DNA of 64,000 bases from Pelotomaculum thermopropionicum SI (GCA_000010565.1 AP009389.1:186001-250000), one strand, 5' to 3'; numbered from the stretch's first letter, positions 39 through 35,156 are shown. Program-made: numbers and translations. Notes: a model not told the origin generated them from the sequence alone.

Positions 39-132
39 TCTCCGAGCCGGTGAGCCTTAGCCGAAGAGGTATGGCTGCCTGGCCGTTAGGGTGCAGCGGG
101 AAACTGTTGCGCCTCCCACTCAGGAAAGGAGA
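39..132 (+). ncRNA. Moco-type (molybdenum cofactor) riboswitch candidate, copy 1
   Basis: The 5' TCTCC (39-43) can pair with GGAGA (128-132). Inside are CCGAGCC, CCTTAG...TATGG (resembling an 11-nt tetraloop receptor), a stem capped by a GAAA tetraloop (about 92-110), and the 3' signature GCCTCCCA-N4-GGAAAGG. The same ordered signatures recur at 4746-4863, so the two are members of one RNA family. I recognise this layout as the Moco RNA motif, which senses molybdenum or tungsten cofactor. The family name is from memory; the shared architecture is seen directly. A terminator hairpin follows at 154-197, before the next gene. Confidence 0.65.
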
Positions 133-153
133 ACATATGCTTTAAGATTATGT

Positions 154-197
154 AAAGCTTCTTCCTTTTGCTTGTGGGAGGAAGCTTTAATATTTTT
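154..197 (+). terminator. Rho-independent terminator in the leader of the Fe-S gene
   Basis: The arms AAAGCTTCTTCC (154-165) and GGAGGAAGCTTT (177-188) form a long stem with one wobble pair, followed by a T-rich tail at 191-197. It lies between the riboswitch candidate and the GTG start at 215, the layout of a transcription-attenuating expression platform. Confidence 0.75.
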
Positions 198-214
198 GCG
201 AGGGGAATTGCCCG

Positions 215-1141
215 GTGGCTGCTTGTATATTTTTCTTCCTTATGATCGTTTCGGCCGGTTTTTTTCTTTGCGAGGTTTTCAAACGCTGCCGTTATGTAAA
301 ATTGGGCAGAGCGGAAAACCGTTTTGACCGTCCTTTCGAGAGATGGAGATACTTTTTTACTCATGCATTGGGCCAGAGGAAGGTATTCGATTACCCCGTT
401 TTTGGAGTATTTCACCTGTTTATAATGTGGGGCTTTCTGGTTTTGCTCGCTGGTATGCCCAACATGATTGCGGAAGGCCTTTATCGCGCCCGCATTCCCC
501 ATGTGGGGGACAACCCTGCCTACCTCCTGCTGAAAGATCTGTTCATAGCTTTCGTAATAACCGGCATTGCCGGCAGTCTGGTGCGGCGGACCGTCAGAAA
601 GCCGGATTGGCTGAAAAACACCCCGGCGGCTTTTGTTATCCTCCTGTTAATCCTGGTCGTTGTAACGACTGAGGTTCTTTTTCACGGCTCCCAATTCGCC
701 CTGGGAGAAGGTGCGGATTTTGCCGGAGCCGCCCCATTAGCTTACGCCAGTTCCAGGTTGTTTGCCGGCATGAGTGAGGGTGCTCTTCTCACAGCCAGGG
801 CCCTTTTCTGGTGGATTCATTTCCTGGCCGTATTTTCATTATTTTTCATCATCCCCCGTTCCAAGCACCTGCATATGGTGTTTGCCCCCTTCAACATTTA
901 CTGGCGTTCGCTGGAGCCGAAAGGCTCTTTGAAAAAAATCCGGCTTGAAGGTGAAAACGCGAAAATTTATGGCGCCGGTAAGCTGGAGGATTTTACCTGG
1001 AAGCAGCTTTTTGAAGCCTACGCCTGTGTGAAATGCGGCCGCTGTGACGGAGCCTGCCCCGCCCACCAGAGCGGCGAACCGGTAAAACCAAAAAGGTTCA
1101 ACGGCCGCCTGCGCAAGCATAACAGTAGACAATTCGAATAA
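215..1141 (+). pseudogene. DUF224-type membrane Fe-S oxidoreductase, 3'-truncated
   Basis: The GTG start at 215 is preceded by GAGGGG. The reading frame has about five hydrophobic segments (near residues 4-21, 58-80, 105-122, 138-156 and 192-214), like the NarI-type cytochrome part of DUF224/HdrD-related membrane oxidoreductases. It then has a first 4Fe-4S motif, CVKCGRCDGACP (about residues 270-281). Family members continue with a second 4Fe-4S motif and two CCG domains; here homology stops near residue 300 (around base 1118) and the frame ends at 1141 in unrelated sequence. Such proteins pass electrons between ETF or similar donors and menaquinone in syntrophic fatty-acid oxidisers. The truncated product is probably non-functional. 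The specific role is inference. Confidence 0.7.
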
Positions 1142-3458
1142 AAACCTGGCAATAACAGCCAGCACGCCGGACAGTGTTACAGTAATCGTTCCAAACGGTA
1201 TTAACGATGCAAGTATCAGCGTTATAAATTTACTTGGTGCTGATGGTTCAGGTAATGTGACTTCCAGAGCCCTGCCCGCCCTGAACGTCACCGCCGGTGC
1301 TACCATAAACAGCGCCCCGGTGCAGATAACCGTCACCGTTCCGGCAGGCACCACGGTCAGCGCTCCGGCCGGCTGGGACGGTACCATCAACATGCCCACG
1401 GTGCAGACGGCCACCCAGGAGCTGGCCGGTGCCGTGGCTTCGTCAGGCACCGTCAGCGCGGTCATTGAAATAGGCTACGGAGACGTGCCGCTGACCTTCA
1501 GCCAGCCGGTGCGCATTCTAATTCCCGGCCAGGCCGGCAAAGGTGTGGGCTATTACCGGGACGGCATCTTCACCAAAATCAACCCGATCAGCGGCGACAG
1601 CGCGGCCGCCCTGGGCGCAAACAGCGACGGCTACGTGAGCGTCGGCAGCGACCTGGTGGTCTGGACCAAGCACTTCACCCAATTCGTCACTTACACTCCA
1701 ACTGGAAGCGGTGGCACTGGTGGCGGCGGTGGTTCATCCGGCGGCGACATCCAGGCACCCACCTGGCCGAACAAAACTTTTAAAACAGCCACGAAGGCAG
1801 GGCAGACGGTAATCCTCGAATGGTATTCAGCCACGGATAACGTGGGTGTCACCAAATACAGGATTTACCACGGCACCGAACAAATCGGTGAAGTGGATGG
1901 AAACACCACCAAATTCACGTACACCGCGCCAAGTGGTTCGGGCACAGGTTCATTGCCCTATTCCGTCCAGGCCGGGGACGCGGCGGGGAACTGGAGCACC
2001 GACGGCCCCAGTGTAACACTTGGTGGAAGTAACCTGCCGCTCATTGTCGAGTACGGCGTGTATAGATATGATCCCGGCAGCAACACAACCCCGCCCACCC
2101 CGGTTGGGTCAGTGCTGACCTCCGGCAAGCTGACCGGGGTGCCTACAACTTTCAGCAGCAATACTGCCATCGGGATCAGGTTTGCCACCAACGTTGCCAC
2201 CAGCACTTACTTTAGCAGCAACCAGGCTGCATTCCGGCTGCTGGACGCATCGGGCAACAGCGTCAGCATCAGAGTGGACCGGTCGGGCGACGGCACCCCC
2301 AGTGACGTTAATAGAAACTACCTCTTCGTGATTCCACAGGTTGCTTTGAAGTCAGGGAGCTCGTACAAAATCATTATCGGACCGGACCTGACCAGCAACA
2401 ACGGAATGTCGGCAGGCGTGCAGCAAGAAATAGAATTCACCACAGCCGGCAGTGCTGAAAGCCCTGGCGTCAGCGGGCCCGTCACCACCAGCGGCCCCAC
2501 CATTACCACCGGCTCCGCTTCAGTTGACCCGTCCACCGGGGCGACGGTGGGCCTGGGCGACAATGCCAGGATAGTCATACCGGCAAACGCGCTGAAAGGA
2601 ACATCTTCAGTTACAGTTACTGTCAAAGAGGTGACCTCGCCCCCGGCGGTTCCTTCCGGCTACAAGATCGCCGGCAAAGTCTACGAGTTTACCGTCGGTG
2701 ACCAGGCTGGCTATACCTTTAACACCAAGGTCGGCATCACCCTTAGCTTCGACCCGTCAGCATTAAGTTCCGGCGAGACCCCGGCCATATTCTATTACGA
2801 CGAAGCCAAAGGCCAGTGGGTCAACCTCGGCGGCACCGTATCCGGCAACACCATCACCGTAGAAGTAGACCACCTCACCAAGTTCGCCGTGTTCGTCGTA
2901 AAGAAAACGGCTGCGCCGGTGGTCCAGCCGGGCACTTTAACCGACATTGTTGGCCACTGGGCGGAGGCCGATATCAAGAAACTGGTGGGGCTAGGAGCAG
3001 TCAGCGGCTATCCCGACGGCACCTTCAAGCCCGACAGCACCATCACCAGGGCCGAGTTCGCCACCGTGCTGGTGAAGGCGTTCAAGCTCGACCTTAGGAC
3101 CGCCAGGCTGTTTAAAGACACCGCCGGGCACTGGGCCAGAGACTACATTTCCACGGCGGCCGTTTTCGGCATCGTCAACGGTTACGATGCCGACACCTTT
3201 GGGCCGGATGACCTGATCTCCCGCGAGCAGATGGCCGCGATGATCGTCAGGGCCGTCAAGCTGGAGCTGATAAATGAGGAAACCAAGTTCGCAGACCGGG
3301 CTGACATCTCGGAATGGGCCAGGAGCGCCGTGGCTACTGCCGTAAAGAACGGTATCATAAAGGGGTATACCGACAACACCTTCCGGCCCCAGGGCAATGC
3401 CACCCGGGCCGAGGCCGTGACGGTCATCGTCAACACCCTCCGGCTGCAAATCCACTGA
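1119..3458 (+). pseudogene. SLH-domain cell-surface protein, 5'-truncated
   Basis: This is the C-terminal part of an S-layer/cell-wall-anchored protein. The frame is open from 1086 with no start of its own; an internal GTG lies at 1257. Visible in order are a beta-rich region with repeated threonine/valine strands, a Gly/Ser linker (about 1705-1745), a fibronectin type III domain beginning QAPTWP (about 1750-2030), a further beta region, a ZU5/DUF-like segment with IVIPANALKG (about 2575), and three SLH repeats at the end: HWAEADI...GYPDGTFKPD, HWARDYI...GYDADTFGPD, and WARSAVA...GYTDNTFRPQ. The SLH repeats bind pyruvylated cell-wall polymer. The 5' end, including the signal peptide, was lost at a junction near 1118 with the Fe-S gene. 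Confidence 0.8.
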
Positions 3459-3504
3459 GTACAGGCGTTGACGGCTGAAACCGGATTGAATTAAACTGAC
3501 GCAC

Positions 3505-3535
3505 AGAGGGGATCCTTACGGGTTCCCTCTCTTTA
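3505..3535 (+). terminator. Terminator after the SLH protein
   Basis: AGAGGG (3505-3510) pairs with CCCTCT (3525-3530), followed by CTTTAAAATT. It lies about 50 bp after the SLH stop codon. Confidence 0.65.
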
Positions 3536-3635
3536 AAATTATTTCAAACGCTATTACTAAACGTGAGGCATTATGAGGCATTAATGCGGAGCGGAGAAAT
3601 GTATGATATAATTATAACCACAAGGAGTGGTGTCT

Positions 3636-4514
3636 TTGGCCGAATACGATCTGATAATCAAAGTCCTGGTTGAACGTTACATGGACAAGATCGCCTCTTT
3701 CGTCCGGGGTGTACCAGTTGCTGTGGAGCAAATTGAGGACAAAGACAAAGAAGCCGTGGCAGTGCAGCGTACTTCCGATGCGCTTGTTAAAGTACGTGAA
3801 GACGGTTACGAATACCTGATGCTGGTTGAATTTCAGGCCAGGCCGGATCGAAAAATGGCGAGAAGGTTGCTGGAATATACGGCCATGCACCACTGCCGGC
3901 ATGAAAAACCGGTTTACCCTGTAATAATCAACCTGACCGGCGGTAGCCTTCAGGATGGGTGGTACACATTTGAATGCCTTGACCTGACAGTGGTTAATTT
4001 CAACTACCGGCAGATAAACTTACAGGATATTGCCGGCCGGGAACTGCTCTACCGGGGACCGGTAGGTCTGCTGCCCCTTGCGCCGCTGATGAGTCATGAT
4101 GAACCGCCCGAGAAGGTGCTGGATAAATGCGCGAGGCGGTTGCAAAGCGAAGTTGAAGCGGAAGACGATAGGGCATTACTATACTTGGCGCTGGCAGCCC
4201 TTGCGTCTTTGAAATATCCAAAAGATTTAATACTAAGGGTACTGGAGGTGAGCAGGTTGGAAAATATCCCGCTGTTTGACGGTATCCGGGAAGAATGGGA
4301 AGCCAAAGGCAGGATTGAGGGAAAGAATGAAGGTAAGATTGAGGGAATGGTGGAAATGCTTTTTGACTTGGTCGAAGCCAGATTTGGGGAGGTCCCTGAC
4401 GAGTTGCGCAACCGTCTGGTAGTGTTAAAAGGACATGAAGAAATAAAGCGGGCCATGAGAAAAGCCATAAGCGCAGAAACAATAGAGGAATATATGGCAA
4501 GGCTTGAACATTAA
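3636..4514 (+). CDS. Rpn-type PD-(D/E)XK nuclease / putative transposase family protein
   Basis: This protein has about 292 residues. The start is taken as TTG 3636, because the AAGGAG ribosome site (3622-3627) overlaps the upstream GTG codons and sits 8 bases from this TTG. The N-terminal half carries the PD-(D/E)XK core of the Rpn/transposase_31 family: TSDALVKV, then LVEFQARPD, with the catalytic Asp and Glu-x-Gln. The C-terminal part has a charged EGK/EGM repeat segment (about residues 226-243) seen in many of these proteins. Rpn proteins are DNA nucleases that stimulate RecA-independent recombination. It lies alone, within a rearranged region between two SLH-gene fragments, which fits a recombination-promoting role, though that link is only inference. 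Confidence 0.75.
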   Translation: MAEYDLIIKVLVERYMDKIASFVRGVPVAVEQIEDKDKEAVAVQRTSDALVKVREDGYEYLMLVEFQARPDRKMARRLLEYTAMHHCRHEKPVYPVIINLTGGSLQDGWYTFECLDLTVVNFNYRQINLQDIAGRELLYRGPVGLLPLAPLMSHDEPPEKVLDKCARRLQSEVEAEDDRALLYLALAALASLKYPKDLILRVLEVSRLENIPLFDGIREEWEAKGRIEGKNEGKIEGMVEMLFDLVEARFGEVPDELRNRLVVLKGHEEIKRAMRKAISAETIEEYMARLEH

Positions 4515-4745
4515 AAACTAAAGAATTTTTCATTTTGAAATTTGAAGGCGTTTAAATGGACGACAGTTCCATCAGGATAATTTTTTATACAAGCAGAAAA
4601 TAGCTACTTGATGTAGAATAAACAACTGATAATGTAGAATAATTATAGATGTTGAATAACAATAGATTGAATAATTGACCAATTTCACATCCTCCGCCTA
4701 CGGCCAGGTCCGGTTACGGCGGCTCATTTTACAACCTAATACAAT

Positions 4746-4863
4746 CACCCGAGTCTACCCGCCTGTGGCTACTTGGTACATTATCCTTGGTATTAAGGGC
4801 TATGGCGGTTGACCGACAGGGTATACCTTGAAAAGGGTATGCCTCCCAGTGCGGAAAGGGTTT
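4746..4863 (+). ncRNA. Moco-type riboswitch candidate, copy 2
   Basis: It shares the ordered signatures of the element at 39-132: CCGAG, TTAAG...TATGGC, GACCG-N2-AGGGT, a stem capped by GAAA (4813-4841), and GCCTCCCA-N4-GGAAAGG. ACCC (4747-4750) can pair with GGGT (4858-4861) to close the element. A strong terminator follows. The nearest downstream functional gene is a MOT1-type transporter at 5783, separated by SLH-gene fragments; molybdate transporter genes are typical Moco-motif targets. Confidence 0.65.
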
Positions 4864-4876
4864 AGTGCTTTAAATG

Positions 4877-4907
4877 GCCGGGTGCGTTTTCCGCACCCGG
4901 CTTTTTT
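4877..4907 (+). terminator. Terminator of the Moco-type leader, copy 2
   Basis: GCCGGGTGCG (4877-4886) pairs perfectly with CGCACCCGGC (4892-4901) and is followed by six T residues. It lies 14 bases after the GGAAAGG end of the RNA element, as in a riboswitch expression platform. No complete gene starts directly after it; sequence 4910-5100 shows only a stub (ATGGAAGATTTGTAA at about 4965) and a small hairpin at about 5050-5070. Confidence 0.85.
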
Positions 4908-5109
4908 ATTTTGTCAGGCGGTTGATTTGAGAGTTCGATCAAGGGGGTGACAAAGGAAAGGTCAATGGAAGATTTGTAAAAGCCGGCCGGATAATTAATC
5001 TAACGGCAATATCATCAAAAAGGAAGTGATATCGTTATACTGACAACTGCGGCTGCTTGAGAGGCAGCTTTGTGACATTTAAAGGGACTTTTTCATTGCG
5101 TTGAGAGAC

Positions 5110-5626
5110 GAGACTGAAATTTTTCACATTATTTTGCCCAGACCGCGCTGTGAAACATCTTACGTGGTTACGAGTCTTCAACCATTCACACCATATTACT
5201 TCCGGGTAACAGCAGTAAACGGAAGTGTAGAGGGCGGTTTCTCTCCAGATGTGCTGGCCACGACCCCGGCAGATACCGCCGCGCCTGCCTGGCCGGACAA
5301 CAGCGCCTTAACAGCTCTCCCCTCCGGCGGTGAAGTGGTCCTGAGTTGGCCGGCCGCAAGTGACAACGTCAGTGTCACCGGTTATCAGGTCTACCTGGAT
5401 ACAACTCAGCTGACCACCGTCAGCGGCACCACTTACACCGTCACTGGGCTTAGCACTGGCAGCTACAACTTCAGTGTCATAGCGGTAGATGCCGCCGGCA
5501 ATACCAGCCCGCCCTTAACCGCCAGCGTTACCATTGACACGGTCCCGCCCACCACCGGCTCCGCTTCGGTCGACCCGGCTGTCGGGGCGACGGTGGGCCT
5601 GGGCGACAATGCCAGGATAGTCATAC
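5110..5626 (+). pseudogene. Internal fragment of a second FN3/SLH surface protein
   Basis: The fragment translates to the end of one fibronectin type III domain (YVVTSLQPFTPYYFRVTAVN) and one full FN3 domain (AAPAWPDNSALTALPSGGEV through SVIAVDAAGNTSPP). It ends in a segment almost identical to the SLH protein at 1119-3458: GSASVDP..GATVGLGDNARIVIP matches bases 2505-2582. No start codon with ribosome site, signal peptide or C-terminal anchor is present. At about 5627 homology jumps to an inverted SLH fragment. Confidence 0.75.
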
Positions 5627-5770
5627 CACCGCTTTCAGTTTCGCGGCCTTGACGATCATCACGGCCATCTGCTCGCGGGTGATCGGGTCGTCCGGCCCAA
5701 AGGTGTCGGCGTCGTAACCGTTGACGATGCCGAAAACGGCCGCCGTGGAAATGTAGTCTCTGGCCCAGAG
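5627..5770 (-). pseudogene. Inverted SLH-repeat fragment
   Basis: The reverse complement encodes WARDYISTAAVFGIVNGYDA followed by DTFGPDDPITREQMAVMIVK, the second SLH repeat of the protein at 1119-3458 (bases about 3132-3270), at roughly 90 percent nucleotide identity by eye. It is joined head-on to the fragment at 5110-5626 and abuts the disrupted 5' end of the transporter gene. Confidence 0.8.
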
Positions 5771-5782
5771 GAGTGAGTTTAA

Positions 5783-6946
5783 ATATTACAACCTGAAGGA
5801 ACTGAAAGTACTGCAGTTAGAACCTCGCGTAATCGCTTTGATCGCTATGAGTGGGCCGGTGCTTTTGGTGATCTGGGAACACTTATGCCTTTTGCAATGG
5901 GCTATATTATGATAATGAAGATTGAACCACTGGGTTTGCTGGTTACATTAGGCATACTGTTAATTTGTTCAGGTTTGTATTATCGAACACCTATTCCGAT
6001 TCAGCCTATGAAAGCGATCGGCAGCGCTGCAATTACCCAGGCGGCTGTCATTACTCCCGGTATGGTCTGGGGAGCCGGTCTTTTTACCGGTATATTCTGG
6101 TTGACAATGGGACTGACGGGTGCTCTTGATATTATCTCCAGAATAGTTACCAAACCGGTTGTCAGGGGTATTGTCTTGGGTCTGGGCTTTTCTTTTATCA
6201 TGGAAGGCATCAAAATGATGAAGTCCGATTTTATCGCGGCTATTATCGCTCTGGCAATTACTTTCATGCTGCTTAACAGCAAGCGTGTCCCCGCCATGTT
6301 TGTCTTAATTATCTTTGGATTTATTGCTGCTCTGGTAAGGAATCCAGATCTTTTCAAGGAATTGTCTGGTATCCGTTTCGATTTCCAACTGCCTCACTTT
6401 GTATTAGGACAAATCACATGGTCTGACTTCGTAAAGGGGACGCTCATTTTGGGCATTCCCCAGGTGCCGTTAACCCTCGGCAACGCCGTTATAGCTATAA
6501 CAGCAGAGAATAACATGTTGTTTCCCGAACGGCCTGTCACCGAAAGGAAAATTGCTGTTTCCCAGGGGGTAATAAACCTCATTTCCCCATTATTTGGTGG
6601 TATCCCCATGTGCCACGGCGCCGGGGGTATGGCCGGCCACGTTCGCTTCGGCGCCCGGACCGGCGGCGCCTTGATCATCCTGGGAGTTGTTTTATTGGTA
6701 ACCGGCCTTTGTTTTAGCAGCTCAATACTGCTGATATTTAAAATTTTCCCTTTAAGTATATTAGGGGTAATTTTATTTTTCGCGGGCTTGGAGCTGGCTG
6801 CTTCAGCCCATGACGCAGGTAGGGAGAAGAGTGATTCTTATATCTTGCTGGTAACAGCCGGATTTGCAATTTGGAATATGGGCGCCGGTTTCATAGCAGG
6901 AATAATAATGCAAGAACTGTTAAAGAGAAAGGTGTTTAAAATATAG
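5783..6946 (+). CDS. MOT1-type molybdate/sulfate transporter, start codon lost
   Basis: This is a multi-pass membrane protein. The frame is open from 5783 and contains the family's N-terminal signature EWAGAFGDLGTLMPF (about 5849-5893) and a second one, PLTLGNAVIAI (about 6466). It also has PQVP and CHGAGGMAGH motifs, as in the putative sulfate/molybdate (MOT1/SulP-like) family. No ATG, GTG or TTG exists in frame between the stop at 5780 and ATG 5885, and starting at ATG 5885 would delete the conserved first signature. GAGGAG (5769-5774) sits in front of an ATA codon at 5783. The natural start was probably removed by the SLH-fragment junction at about 5771. Molybdate versus sulfate as substrate is undecided; the Moco-type leader upstream favours molybdate. 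Confidence 0.75.
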   Translation: MLQPEGTESTAVRTSRNRFDRYEWAGAFGDLGTLMPFAMGYIMIMKIEPLGLLVTLGILLICSGLYYRTPIPIQPMKAIGSAAITQAAVITPGMVWGAGLFTGIFWLTMGLTGALDIISRIVTKPVVRGIVLGLGFSFIMEGIKMMKSDFIAAIIALAITFMLLNSKRVPAMFVLIIFGFIAALVRNPDLFKELSGIRFDFQLPHFVLGQITWSDFVKGTLILGIPQVPLTLGNAVIAITAENNMLFPERPVTERKIAVSQGVINLISPLFGGIPMCHGAGGMAGHVRFGARTGGALIILGVVLLVTGLCFSSSILLIFKIFPLSILGVILFFAGLELAASAHDAGREKSDSYILLVTAGFAIWNMGAGFIAGIIMQELLKRKVFKI

Positions 6947-7049: not shown

Positions 7050-7160
7050 CAAGATATTTCTCTCAGGGCAAATTCTATCCTTTTTCTGGCAAGCTTATTT
7101 TCCGTCACGGCAGGAAAAGTCTTGCCGGCGTTGAATTACGAAAATGGTCAAAGGAAGGGG

Positions 7161-7280
7161 AAAGGAGGCATACCTTCTTCACAGGTGCGTCAACAGAAGA
7201 AAGGGTACACCTCTTTTAGAGGTATGTCAGCAGTGGAAAGGGGGCGTACCTCTTTCGAAGGTATGTTCCCAATTGGAAGA
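7161..7280 (+). repeat. Three tandem imperfect palindromic units before tilS
   Basis: Three units of about 38 bp begin near 7161, 7199 and 7236, each with the pattern GGAAAGG..GTACCTCTTT..AAGGTATGT. The core of each unit is an imperfect palindrome. They lie in the leader of tilS; the last is followed by the GAGGAG ribosome site. They resemble REP-type elements; no function is visible. Confidence 0.6.
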
Positions 7281-7294
7281 AGAGGAGAAGTTAG

Positions 7295-13329: not shown

Positions 13330-15240
13330 ATGGTGGGAAAAGTTACAGGAAGCCTGCGTTTGAGGATGACCATTCTGTTTGGGCTGGTGGTCCTGATCGG
13401 GTGCCTGGTGCTGGCGCTCGTCAGCGAGTTTAAATCCACCGCCGCCCTGGAGGGCGAGGCTAAAGAAGCCATGCTGAAAGTGGCCAGGCAGGCCGCCGAA
13501 ACCGTGGATAGCCAGGTTCGGGCACGGGTGTACGTGCTGGAAGTCCTGGCCAACAACAGCATCATACGCGGCGTTTCGGCCGGCCGGGAAGCTGCCCTGG
13601 AGGAAAAATTAAGCGTTCTCAGGGAAGCCCAGAAAGCGGCGGAGGGGCTGGGGTTTAAAGAGTTCACCGTCGTCGACAGGGAGGGCAACGGAAATATCTC
13701 CAACGGCGGGAAAGTGTACGTTGCCGACCGGGAATATTTCAAAACCGCCTTGAGCGGAAAGCTCTGCATTACCAGCACCCTCATCAGCAAGGCCGACAAT
13801 TCGGTGGTGTTTTCCTACAATCTGCCCATCCGCCACCATGCCACCGGTGAAATAACCGGAGTGCTCACCGGCATTGTGGATGGAGCAAAGTTTAGCGAGC
13901 TTATCGGGGCCGTCACCTACGGCCGGACCGGGCACGCCCTGGCTGTGGACGGAGCAGGCAAGATTATAGCCCATAAGGACGCTGAGAGGGTCAGGGCCCA
14001 GGAAAACATTGTCGAGCAGGCCGCCTCAAACAAGGATCTGGCTTCCCTGGCGGCGGTTGTTGCCAAAATGGCTAAAGGCGAAGAAGGCGTGGAGGGCTAT
14101 GTCCTGCAGGGCCAGAACATGCTTATAGCCTATGCGCCGGTAAAGACTACCGGCTGGTCGGTGGCCGTAACCGCTCCTGTAAACGAAGTGCTGGAAAGGG
14201 CTGCCGGACTGAAATGGGCAATGCTGGCGGTGTCCCTGGCAATAATTGTCCTGGCCCTGGTACTAACCTATGTGATGGCTAAAACCGTTGCCGAGCCGCT
14301 TAGCCAGGCGGTGAATTACCTGGGGCAACTGGCGGAAGGGAACTTTACCAGCAGGGTGCAGGAGAAACACCTAAAAAGAAATGACGAGATCGGCAGGCTG
14401 GCGCAGGCCGTCGACAGGATGTGGACAAGCCTTAGAGAGATGTTTCTGACCATCAGGGAGGACGCCCAGAACCTGGCCGCCAACAGCGAGGAACTGGCCG
14501 CTTCCGCCGAGGAGGTCAGCGCCACCGTGGAAGAGGTGGCCAGCACCACCGGGGAGGTGGCCTCAATGGCCGAAAAGAGCCTGGAGAACGCCAGCCGCAC
14601 GGCGGAGGAGTCCAGGAACGTGGTGGCCGTGGCCGAGAGCGGCGGGGCGACGGTTGGGAAGACCATCGAGAAGATCAACTCCATTGCTGCGTCGGCCGCC
14701 CGCATGGGTGAATCCGTCCAGAATCTCGGTGAACTTTCGGCGCGCATCGGCAACATTACCGACGTTATTACCGGAATAGCCGACCAGACCAACCTGCTGG
14801 CCTTAAACGCCGCCATTGAGGCGGCGCGCGCCGGCGAGCAGGGGCGCGGCTTTGCCGTGGTGGCCGAGGAAGTCAGGAAGCTGGCCGAGCAGTCGGCTGA
14901 CGCGGCCAAGGAAATCGGCCAGCTCATCGGTCAGATTCAGTCCGGGGTAGAGGCGGCTGTAAAAGCAATGGAGTACGGTTCCGCCGAAGTGAAGGATGGG
15001 GTGGAACTGGCCTCCCAGGCCGGCGCTGCTCTGCGGGACATCATCGGCGCCGTCAATAAGAACATCGGGCTGATGGAGGAGATAATCCAGGGGGCCAGGC
15101 AGGCCAGCGAGGGGATGCAGCAGCTTTCAGCCAGCAACGAGCAGGTGACCTCGACCATTCAGCAGGTGGCAGGCGCCACCCAGCAACTGGCGGAAATTGC
15201 CAGCAGGCTGCAGGCATCGGTGAACAGGTTCAAAATATAG
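13330..15240 (+). CDS. Methyl-accepting chemotaxis protein, Cache-type sensor
   Basis: About 636 residues if translated from ATG 13330; another ATG at 13267 is in frame and lacks a ribosome site, so the start is uncertain. The N-terminal membrane segment ([20 protein letters not shown]) is followed by a periplasmic ligand domain of about 250 residues with dCache features ([36 protein letters not shown]). A second membrane segment ([20 protein letters not shown]), a HAMP domain and the methyl-accepting signalling helix bundle come next. The hairpin tip [20 protein letters not shown] is intact. The 3' 760 bp of the gene is nearly identical to that of the receptor at 15551. Ligand unknown. Confidence 0.92.
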
Positions 15241-15372: not shown

Positions 15373-15397
15373 AAATTATAATAATATACTCAATGAT

Positions 15398-15478
15398 AAT
15401 GGCAAATCCACTCGAAAGATGGAGACGCAAAGCCGCGGGTCTAAAGCAATTACGCCATGACAGCCGGGCTGCCGTGAG
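15398..15478 (+). ncRNA. Cyclic-di-GMP-I (GEMM-I) riboswitch
   Basis: The element matches the class I c-di-GMP aptamer in order: GGCAAATCCA, a GAAA tetraloop stem (CTCGAAAGATGG), the invariant GACGCAAAGCC, a variable stem with TCTAAAG, then CCATGACAGCCGGGCTGCCG. A terminator at 15486-15517 is the expression platform. The regulated gene is the chemoreceptor at 15551, a common GEMM-I target. Whether c-di-GMP turns expression on or off cannot be told by eye. Confidence 0.92.
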
Positions 15479-34946: not shown

Positions 34947-35156
34947 GCTAAAAAAATTTTTCACGGAAGAAGAAAAACTTAGCAAAGCTTTTTTATAAAT
35001 CCAATTGTTCATTTCGCCCTGCTGTGATAAAATTTGCATGAGGGCGGTATCCGGGCGCGGAACCGCACCGTAAAAAAGCGTTTTTTTGACAACCTGGTAT
35101 TTTTTGGAACCGCTTGGAGCCGGAAGGACCGAGACGGGAGGTCAGAGAAACTTACG

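Follow-up and report, generated by a model that had tools for sequence, protein, structure and literature searches.

What do two riboswitches of the molybdenum cofactor (Moco) family control when neither of them directly leads an intact molybdenum gene? Riboswitches of the Moco/Wco type act on cofactor synthesis, metal transport and cofactor-using enzymes. The stretch analyzed here (64,000 nucleotides of Pelotomaculum thermopropionicum SI, GCA_000010565.1 AP009389.1:186001-250000, hereafter the window) was described in a first-pass annotation as carrying two Moco-type elements within 5 kb, both without an intact molybdenum gene directly behind them, and the latter point holds for both copies. 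The two elements and their terminators are the following.

28-147, + strand: copy 1, P3-less Moco/Wco aptamer of the canonical subclass GAGCC/GGCC (RF01055, 74.9 bits; fold z -4.81)
153-197, + strand: intrinsic terminator of copy 1 (hairpin and T run)
4735-4877, + strand: copy 2, P3-less Moco/Wco aptamer of the surface-protein subclass GAGUC/GACC, CCUGUGG...CUAUGG (RF01055, 54.9 bits)
4876-4912, + strand: intrinsic terminator of copy 2 (hairpin and T run)

A cmscan search against Rfam 15 matched RF01055 twice within the first 5 kb of the window, both times spanning all 135 model positions and exceeding the gathering score of 36 (E 2.9e-16 for copy 1 and 2e-10 for copy 2). The conserved junction and the GNRA tetraloop are present in both copies as judged from motifs and alignment, as are the common motifs listed earlier (CCGAG, TATGGC, a GAAA-capped P4 and GCCTCCCA-N4-GGAAAGG) and the terminator then placed behind each element. 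Both are far more stably folded than shuffled sequences (z -3.65 for copy 2), and both are genuine members of the Moco riboswitch family. The span first assigned, 39-4907, covers the two elements but begins 11 nt inside copy 1. Only some 3-5 nt separate P2 from AGGG, so stem P3 is missing in both copies, and copy 2 has a long P2 loop. RNAs without P3 form the class proposed to sense the tungsten cofactor, Wco (Regulski et al. 2008, PMC2408646). With our home-made model R1, whose alignment includes copy 2 itself, copy 2 scores 97.1 bits; an R1 scan of the window for further degenerate copies returned one chance-level match (14277-14357, E 0.45).

The fold and the terminators were then considered among relatives. 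RNAalifold, given an alignment of 25 RNAs with copies 1 and 2 included, recovered P1, P2, P4 and P5 unaided; 17 of 28 pairs carry two-sided changes, these make up 119 cells where shuffling predicts 43, and none of 500 shuffles reaches the observed value while every slid control is far lower. A hairpin like the terminator of copy 1 (AAAGCTT-TCCTTTT) follows the first RNA of a tandem pair in both G011 and G016, two of the relatives, and the terminator hairpin of copy 2 is kept in the same two genomes with a two-sided pair change. Across 148 RNAs, 78% have a terminator (-12 kcal or lower) within 160 nt, compared to 13% at a control position and 5% after shuffling, so transcription termination is the likely output of these RNAs; a test for antiterminator pairing of the terminator with the 3' strand of P1 gave a weak signal. 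E. coli genes behind the Moco RNA are expressed less when Moco is made (PMC2408646), and by analogy the copies in the window would be OFF switches for a presumed tungsten-type ligand: plentiful cofactor would stabilize the aptamer and let the terminator form, and scarce cofactor would permit read-through.

The sequence between the two RNAs is composed as follows.

215-1141, + strand: truncated gene for an HdrD/DUF224-type Fe-S membrane protein; homology to full-length orthologs stops at about 1121
1104-3561, + strand: C-terminal part and 3' flank of an SLH surface-protein gene (three SLH repeats), joined to the broken DUF224 gene
3627-4514, + strand: ORF weakly matching the Rpn/YhgA-like nuclease-transposase superfamily (PF04754, TIGR01784)

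Copy 1 lies about 70 nt upstream of the 308-aa ORF at 215-1141, of which about 302 aa align with full-length counterparts of 680-719 aa in the closest relatives, its N-terminal 300 aa or so being 68% identical to a 719-aa ORF in G011 and 66% identical to a 680-aa ORF in G016. The intact G011 ortholog has Fer4 and CCG domains (PF02754) and is of the HdrD/DUF224 type; the C-terminal CCG cysteine-rich domain is absent from the window protein. The ORF is a fragment, and its earlier description as a truncated DUF224-type gene is borne out. The C-terminal half was sought across the whole genome and not found, and relocation of the 3' half within the genome was rejected, since the best matches were paralogs at 39% identity or less.

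The partnership itself had been called unusual for the family and attributed to displacement, and here the comparison with relatives came out the other way. RF01055 RNAs stand directly before an intact HdrD/DUF224 ortholog or paralog in G011 and G016 (as tandems in these two), G020, G049, a Desulfoscipio geothermicus MAG (90 nt) and Desulfosporosinus SbF1 (155 nt), which makes six other genomes with the same pairing; no RNA was found upstream of the DUF224 genes of Sporomusa, P. terephthalicicum and UBA3102. Because the pairing recurs in relatives, copy 1 sits in its usual place. Judged by this comparison, copy 1 serves as leader to an HdrD/DUF224 electron-transfer gene, with which the RNA is repeatedly paired, and the 3' half of this gene has been deleted here.

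Downstream of copy 2, the following features were mapped.

4954-5036, + strand: leader end and RBS AAGGAAGTGATATC of a lost surface-protein gene, matching G011 L108:12874-12956, the start of a giant SLH gene
5068-5627, + strand: fragments, of which 5068-5151 derives from G011 L109:2916-2998, followed by fn3 and SLH-protein pieces
5627-5768, - strand: inverted SLH-gene scrap, 86% identical to G011 L108:18515-18656 in reverse
5768-6946, + strand: MOT1-type molybdate transporter gene (PF16983) with an intact coding part; upstream of 5768 the native sequence has been replaced

In G011, copy 2 has its ortholog at L108:12598-12740, 82.5% identical over 212 nt with the terminator included, and this ortholog lies 174 nt upstream of an intact gene for a 1975-aa protein with DUF7948, SBBP, fn3, Big_5 and three SLH domains. 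The G016 ortholog is followed, at a distance of about 1.06 kb, by an 825-aa open ORF that likewise has the DUF7948/SBBP/fn3 architecture. The window tracks the leader of the giant SLH gene of G011 up to the RBS and diverges immediately thereafter. With the giant surface protein being the partner of copy 2 in two relatives, the SLH debris is probably the remnant of the target gene of copy 2 itself. The SLH debris and the MOT1-type gene reported behind copy 2 were both found, with fn3 pieces in the debris, and a riboswitch standing before such debris can identify a lost gene through comparison with relatives. The RNAs of these relatives precede non-molybdenum genes, an outcome that the first-pass annotation had itself named as speaking against its reading. 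Just upstream of the copy 2 ortholog, G011 also holds a further, degenerate copy of the 5' half of this RNA (L108:12515-12560, CCGAGTAACCCGCCTGTGGCTATTTG), which suggests a decayed member of a former tandem pair.

The breakpoints can be read against the same genome. Window positions 2505-3561 show 81% identity to the terminal part of the giant G011 SLH gene, the inverted scrap at 5627-5768 contains a 133-nt inverted repeat of 3131-3263, and the ORF at 3627-4514 scores 20.3 bits against PF04754 (just under the cut-off) and 24.5 bits against TIGR01784. Contig C33 of G011 holds DUF224, the giant SLH gene and MOT1 within one 26-kb stretch, together with eight RF01055 copies, and the window therefore resembles such an arrangement after deletions and shuffling, this being the simplest reading and not a reconstruction. 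A rearrangement of a G011-like region (RNAs-DUF224, RNA-giant SLH and MOT1, in this order) would have fused the start of the DUF224 gene to the end of the SLH gene, and the same rearrangement would have severed the gene of copy 2 at its start codon and put MOT1 downstream.

Building on the observed RNA family and subclass, terminators, gene pairings in relatives and breakpoints, we consider it likely that both elements are P3-less, Wco-type terminating riboswitches in a rearranged region, with copy 1 leading DUF224 and copy 2 leading a giant S-layer-type gene. We think it unlikely that the two RNAs are instead non-functional relics that survive beside dead genes. Both downstream genes are broken, as a relic would have it, and the wider group of RNA-led surface proteins described below is almost gone from the window genome, in which no cohesin or Oxidored_molyb matches were found. 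However, copy 1 outscores the RNAs that stand before intact DUF224 genes (74.9 versus at most 69.8 bits), copy 2 outscores its G011 ortholog before the intact gene (54.9 versus 48.8 bits), and the terminator pairing of copy 2 has been kept through a two-sided change.

The pairing of copy 2 with a surface-protein gene was then placed in a survey of 148 RF01055 copies (131 units after merging of tandems) in eight genomes, in which the first gene after each unit was examined. In about 25 of the 131 units, this gene encodes a giant or secreted surface protein (219 to 2994 aa), a share that is not a family average since the genomes were chosen for their DUF224 or MOT1 relatives or their many RNAs, and not at random. 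Pfam domains in these proteins comprise SLH, Cohesin, Dockerin_1, fn3, Shr-like_HID, RCC1/NHL/Kelch propellers and Big_5. G049 belongs to a different family within the order; each of its three cohesin genes and four of its roughly 17 SLH genes stand immediately behind an RNA (chance 3e-7 and 4e-6, respectively, for about 23 units and an estimated 3300 or so genes), as do three of the eight cohesin genes of G020 (chance 1e-5); these figures assume independence, an assumption that gene duplication weakens. Many surface-leading RNAs lie on a single G020 contig (C210), and RNA and surface gene may have been duplicated together. Little of this group is present in the window genome, G001 and G016. 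The cohesin/dockerin giants at L234, L240, L186, L202, L237 and L242 have RCC1 and fn3 repeats, and not glycoside hydrolases, among their matches, and a non-cellulosomal cohesin-dockerin system in the syntroph relatives is possible.

The RNAs before these genes differ in sequence from the rest. Surface-leading RNAs often read GAGUC...CCUGUGG...CUAUGG...GACC, compared to the canonical GAGCC...CCUAAAG...AUGG...GGCC, and the receptor-type sequence occurs in 18 of 29 surface-leading versus 17 of 119 other RNAs (Fisher p 6e-7, a descriptive value as the split was spotted and tested in the same data). The accompanying P2 base pair switches on both sides from C-G to U-A (U-A in 11 and C-G in 10 of the 25 aligned RNAs; p 3e-9 among copies with both sides readable by pattern). 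Copy 2 belongs to this group and copy 1 does not; by these sequence criteria, copy 2 is a member of a distinct RNA subclass that is enriched before giant surface proteins.

Giant secreted proteins are a new target class for a known riboswitch family, with no earlier report found: a search of the literature, mostly outside the subscription journals, yielded no paper that connects S-layer, cohesin or dockerin proteins with Moco/Wco riboswitches. In S. wolfei, two P3-less RNAs that lead putative sulphite oxidases were noted as possible exceptions (PMC2408646) and may be the visible edge of the surface-protein group. These same RNAs would fit a plainer account, in which the pairing is due only to Oxidored_molyb domains and amounts to ordinary regulation of cofactor enzymes; such domains are found by Pfam in two RNA-led giants (L238 and L247) and by a home-made HMM in several others. 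We regard this account as improbable, the cohesin-SLH, dockerin and DUF7948-SBBP-SLH proteins showing no such domain.

The pairings in relatives point to an unrecognized link from tungsten cofactor supply to the cell exterior. We propose, tentatively and with somewhat less than balanced confidence, that the P3-less subclass (GAGUC/GACC, CCUGUGG...CUAUGG) couples W/Mo cofactor status to cohesin-dockerin-SLH surface assembly in syntrophic Pelotomaculum relatives, copy 2 being the last trace of this branch in the window genome. In relatives, the proteins often encoded behind RNAs of the subclass are SLH anchors, cohesin scaffolds, and dockerin-bearing and propeller proteins, some with Oxidored_molyb. 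As to purpose, we infer only that syntrophs would need tungsten formate dehydrogenases for formate transfer and, when short of cofactor, may depend on closer contact for hydrogen transfer; P. thermopropionicum co-aggregates with its methanogen (literature cited in PMC11224092). If this proposal is true, a metal cofactor signal would govern the envelope of bacteria whose way of life depends on contact with a partner, for example by increasing contact with the methanogen when the tungsten-dependent formate dehydrogenase cannot be made, and would constitute a concrete, testable regulator of aggregation in syntrophy.

This leaves the molybdate transporter gene behind copy 2, which matches PF16983 (MFS_MOT1) at 151.8 bits (cut-off 30) and from 5768 on is 88% identical at the DNA level to the MOT1 locus of G011 (L109:4771-5953). 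Compatible with copy 2 as the leader of the giant surface-protein gene, though in itself doubtful, is a capture in which MOT1, stripped of its native upstream region, now depends on read-through from copy 2. Position 5768 is where similarity to the native MOT1 locus sets in, the terminator of copy 2 is the only + strand terminator-like site between copy 2 and MOT1, and a search of 4915-5790 gave no promoter-like site on the + strand; both searches are, however, crude consensus scans, and the 880-nt leader contains untranslated gene scraps. That MOT1 was the original target of copy 2, parted from it by insertion of the SLH debris, is largely refuted and very improbable: MOT1 does lie about 880 bp downstream on the same strand, and P3-less RNAs do lead transporters elsewhere (including Tup-type genes in this genome), but none of the MOT1 loci in 16 relatives has RF01055 upstream on the MOT1 strand, and from copy 2 to the RBS the sequence matches the leader of the giant SLH gene, not MOT1. 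Two of the 16 loci carry RF01055 on the opposite strand, as a divergent pair. MOT1 is thus not the separated partner, and of the view that a rearrangement parted riboswitch and target, the rearranged region stands, whereas copy 1 is in place and MOT1 was not what copy 2 lost. In the MOT1 frame (5768-5890), also in G011 and G016, the interval from the upstream stop to the conserved N-terminus is free of ATG, GTG and TTG codons, and an ATA codon comes after the RBS-like GAGGAGTGAG; a non-standard start or a later internal start is possible.

Several other elements were observed. The window contains a c-di-GMP-I riboswitch (15391-15476, + strand; RF01051, 77.5 bits) and a pan motif (35041-35141, + strand; RF01749, 56.4 bits). 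Successive similar hairpins (ACCTC...GAGGT) with GGAAAGG-like spacers lie at 7150-7290, just before a tilS-like gene; by eye these resemble the 3' part of the Moco motif, they match neither RF01055 nor R1, and a search for a tandem-repeat array before tilS reported none. In relatives, RF01055 copies stand before a TrmO_N-type gene at L108:148, L110:4328, L231:166, L020:1505 and L165:1611, the assignment being by Pfam for G011 only and by N-terminal likeness in G016, G001, G020 and G015; in G011 this gene is followed by a TnpB-like ORF with a Cas12f1-like TNB domain.

The window genome (one contig, 3,025,375 bp) has ten RF01055 copies, including a triple at 656534-657045 that leads an [FeFe] hydrogenase. 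The other genes led by such RNAs in this genome encode a Tup-type binding protein, a Tup-type permease, the small subunit of a NiFe hydrogenase, a molybdopterin protein of the NuoG/formate-dehydrogenase type and a sigma-54 response regulator; the two Tup-type proteins and the molybdopterin protein are candidates for tungsten metabolism. The RNA occurs in 59 of 60 relatives, with up to 30 copies per genome.

In clostridia, c-di-GMP riboswitches control surface adhesins. The arrangement proposed here is alike in placing a riboswitch over cell-surface proteins and differs in the ligand, which in the clostridial case is a second messenger instead of a metal cofactor. The S. wolfei DUF224 protein Swol_0698, assigned as an EtfAB:quinone oxidoreductase feeding formate dehydrogenase (PMC3582634), is a membrane Fe-S protein like the intact relatives of the window gene with their Fer4 and CCG domains, whereas the window copy is without its CCG half. 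Tandem Wco riboswitches have been described as P3-less tandems before hydrogenases (PMC9481103), to which the triple before the [FeFe] hydrogenase corresponds; tandems before DUF224 and giant surface proteins are absent from the list given there. The S. wolfei "sulphite oxidase" RNAs (PMC2408646) resemble those RNA-led giants that have Oxidored_molyb, but the set found here is wider (SLH, cohesin, dockerin and fn3), with many members free of that domain. With the Moco RNA motif as defined in the accessible text of PMC2408646, both copies share P1, P2, P4, P5, the GAAA tetraloop and the terminators, and with its proposed tungsten-cofactor type the absence of P3; the subclass of copy 2 departs from that motif in the P2 pair (C-G to U-A) and the tetraloop-receptor stretch (CCUAAG to CCUGUGG), and the surface-protein and DUF224 partners identified here are additional to those named in that text.
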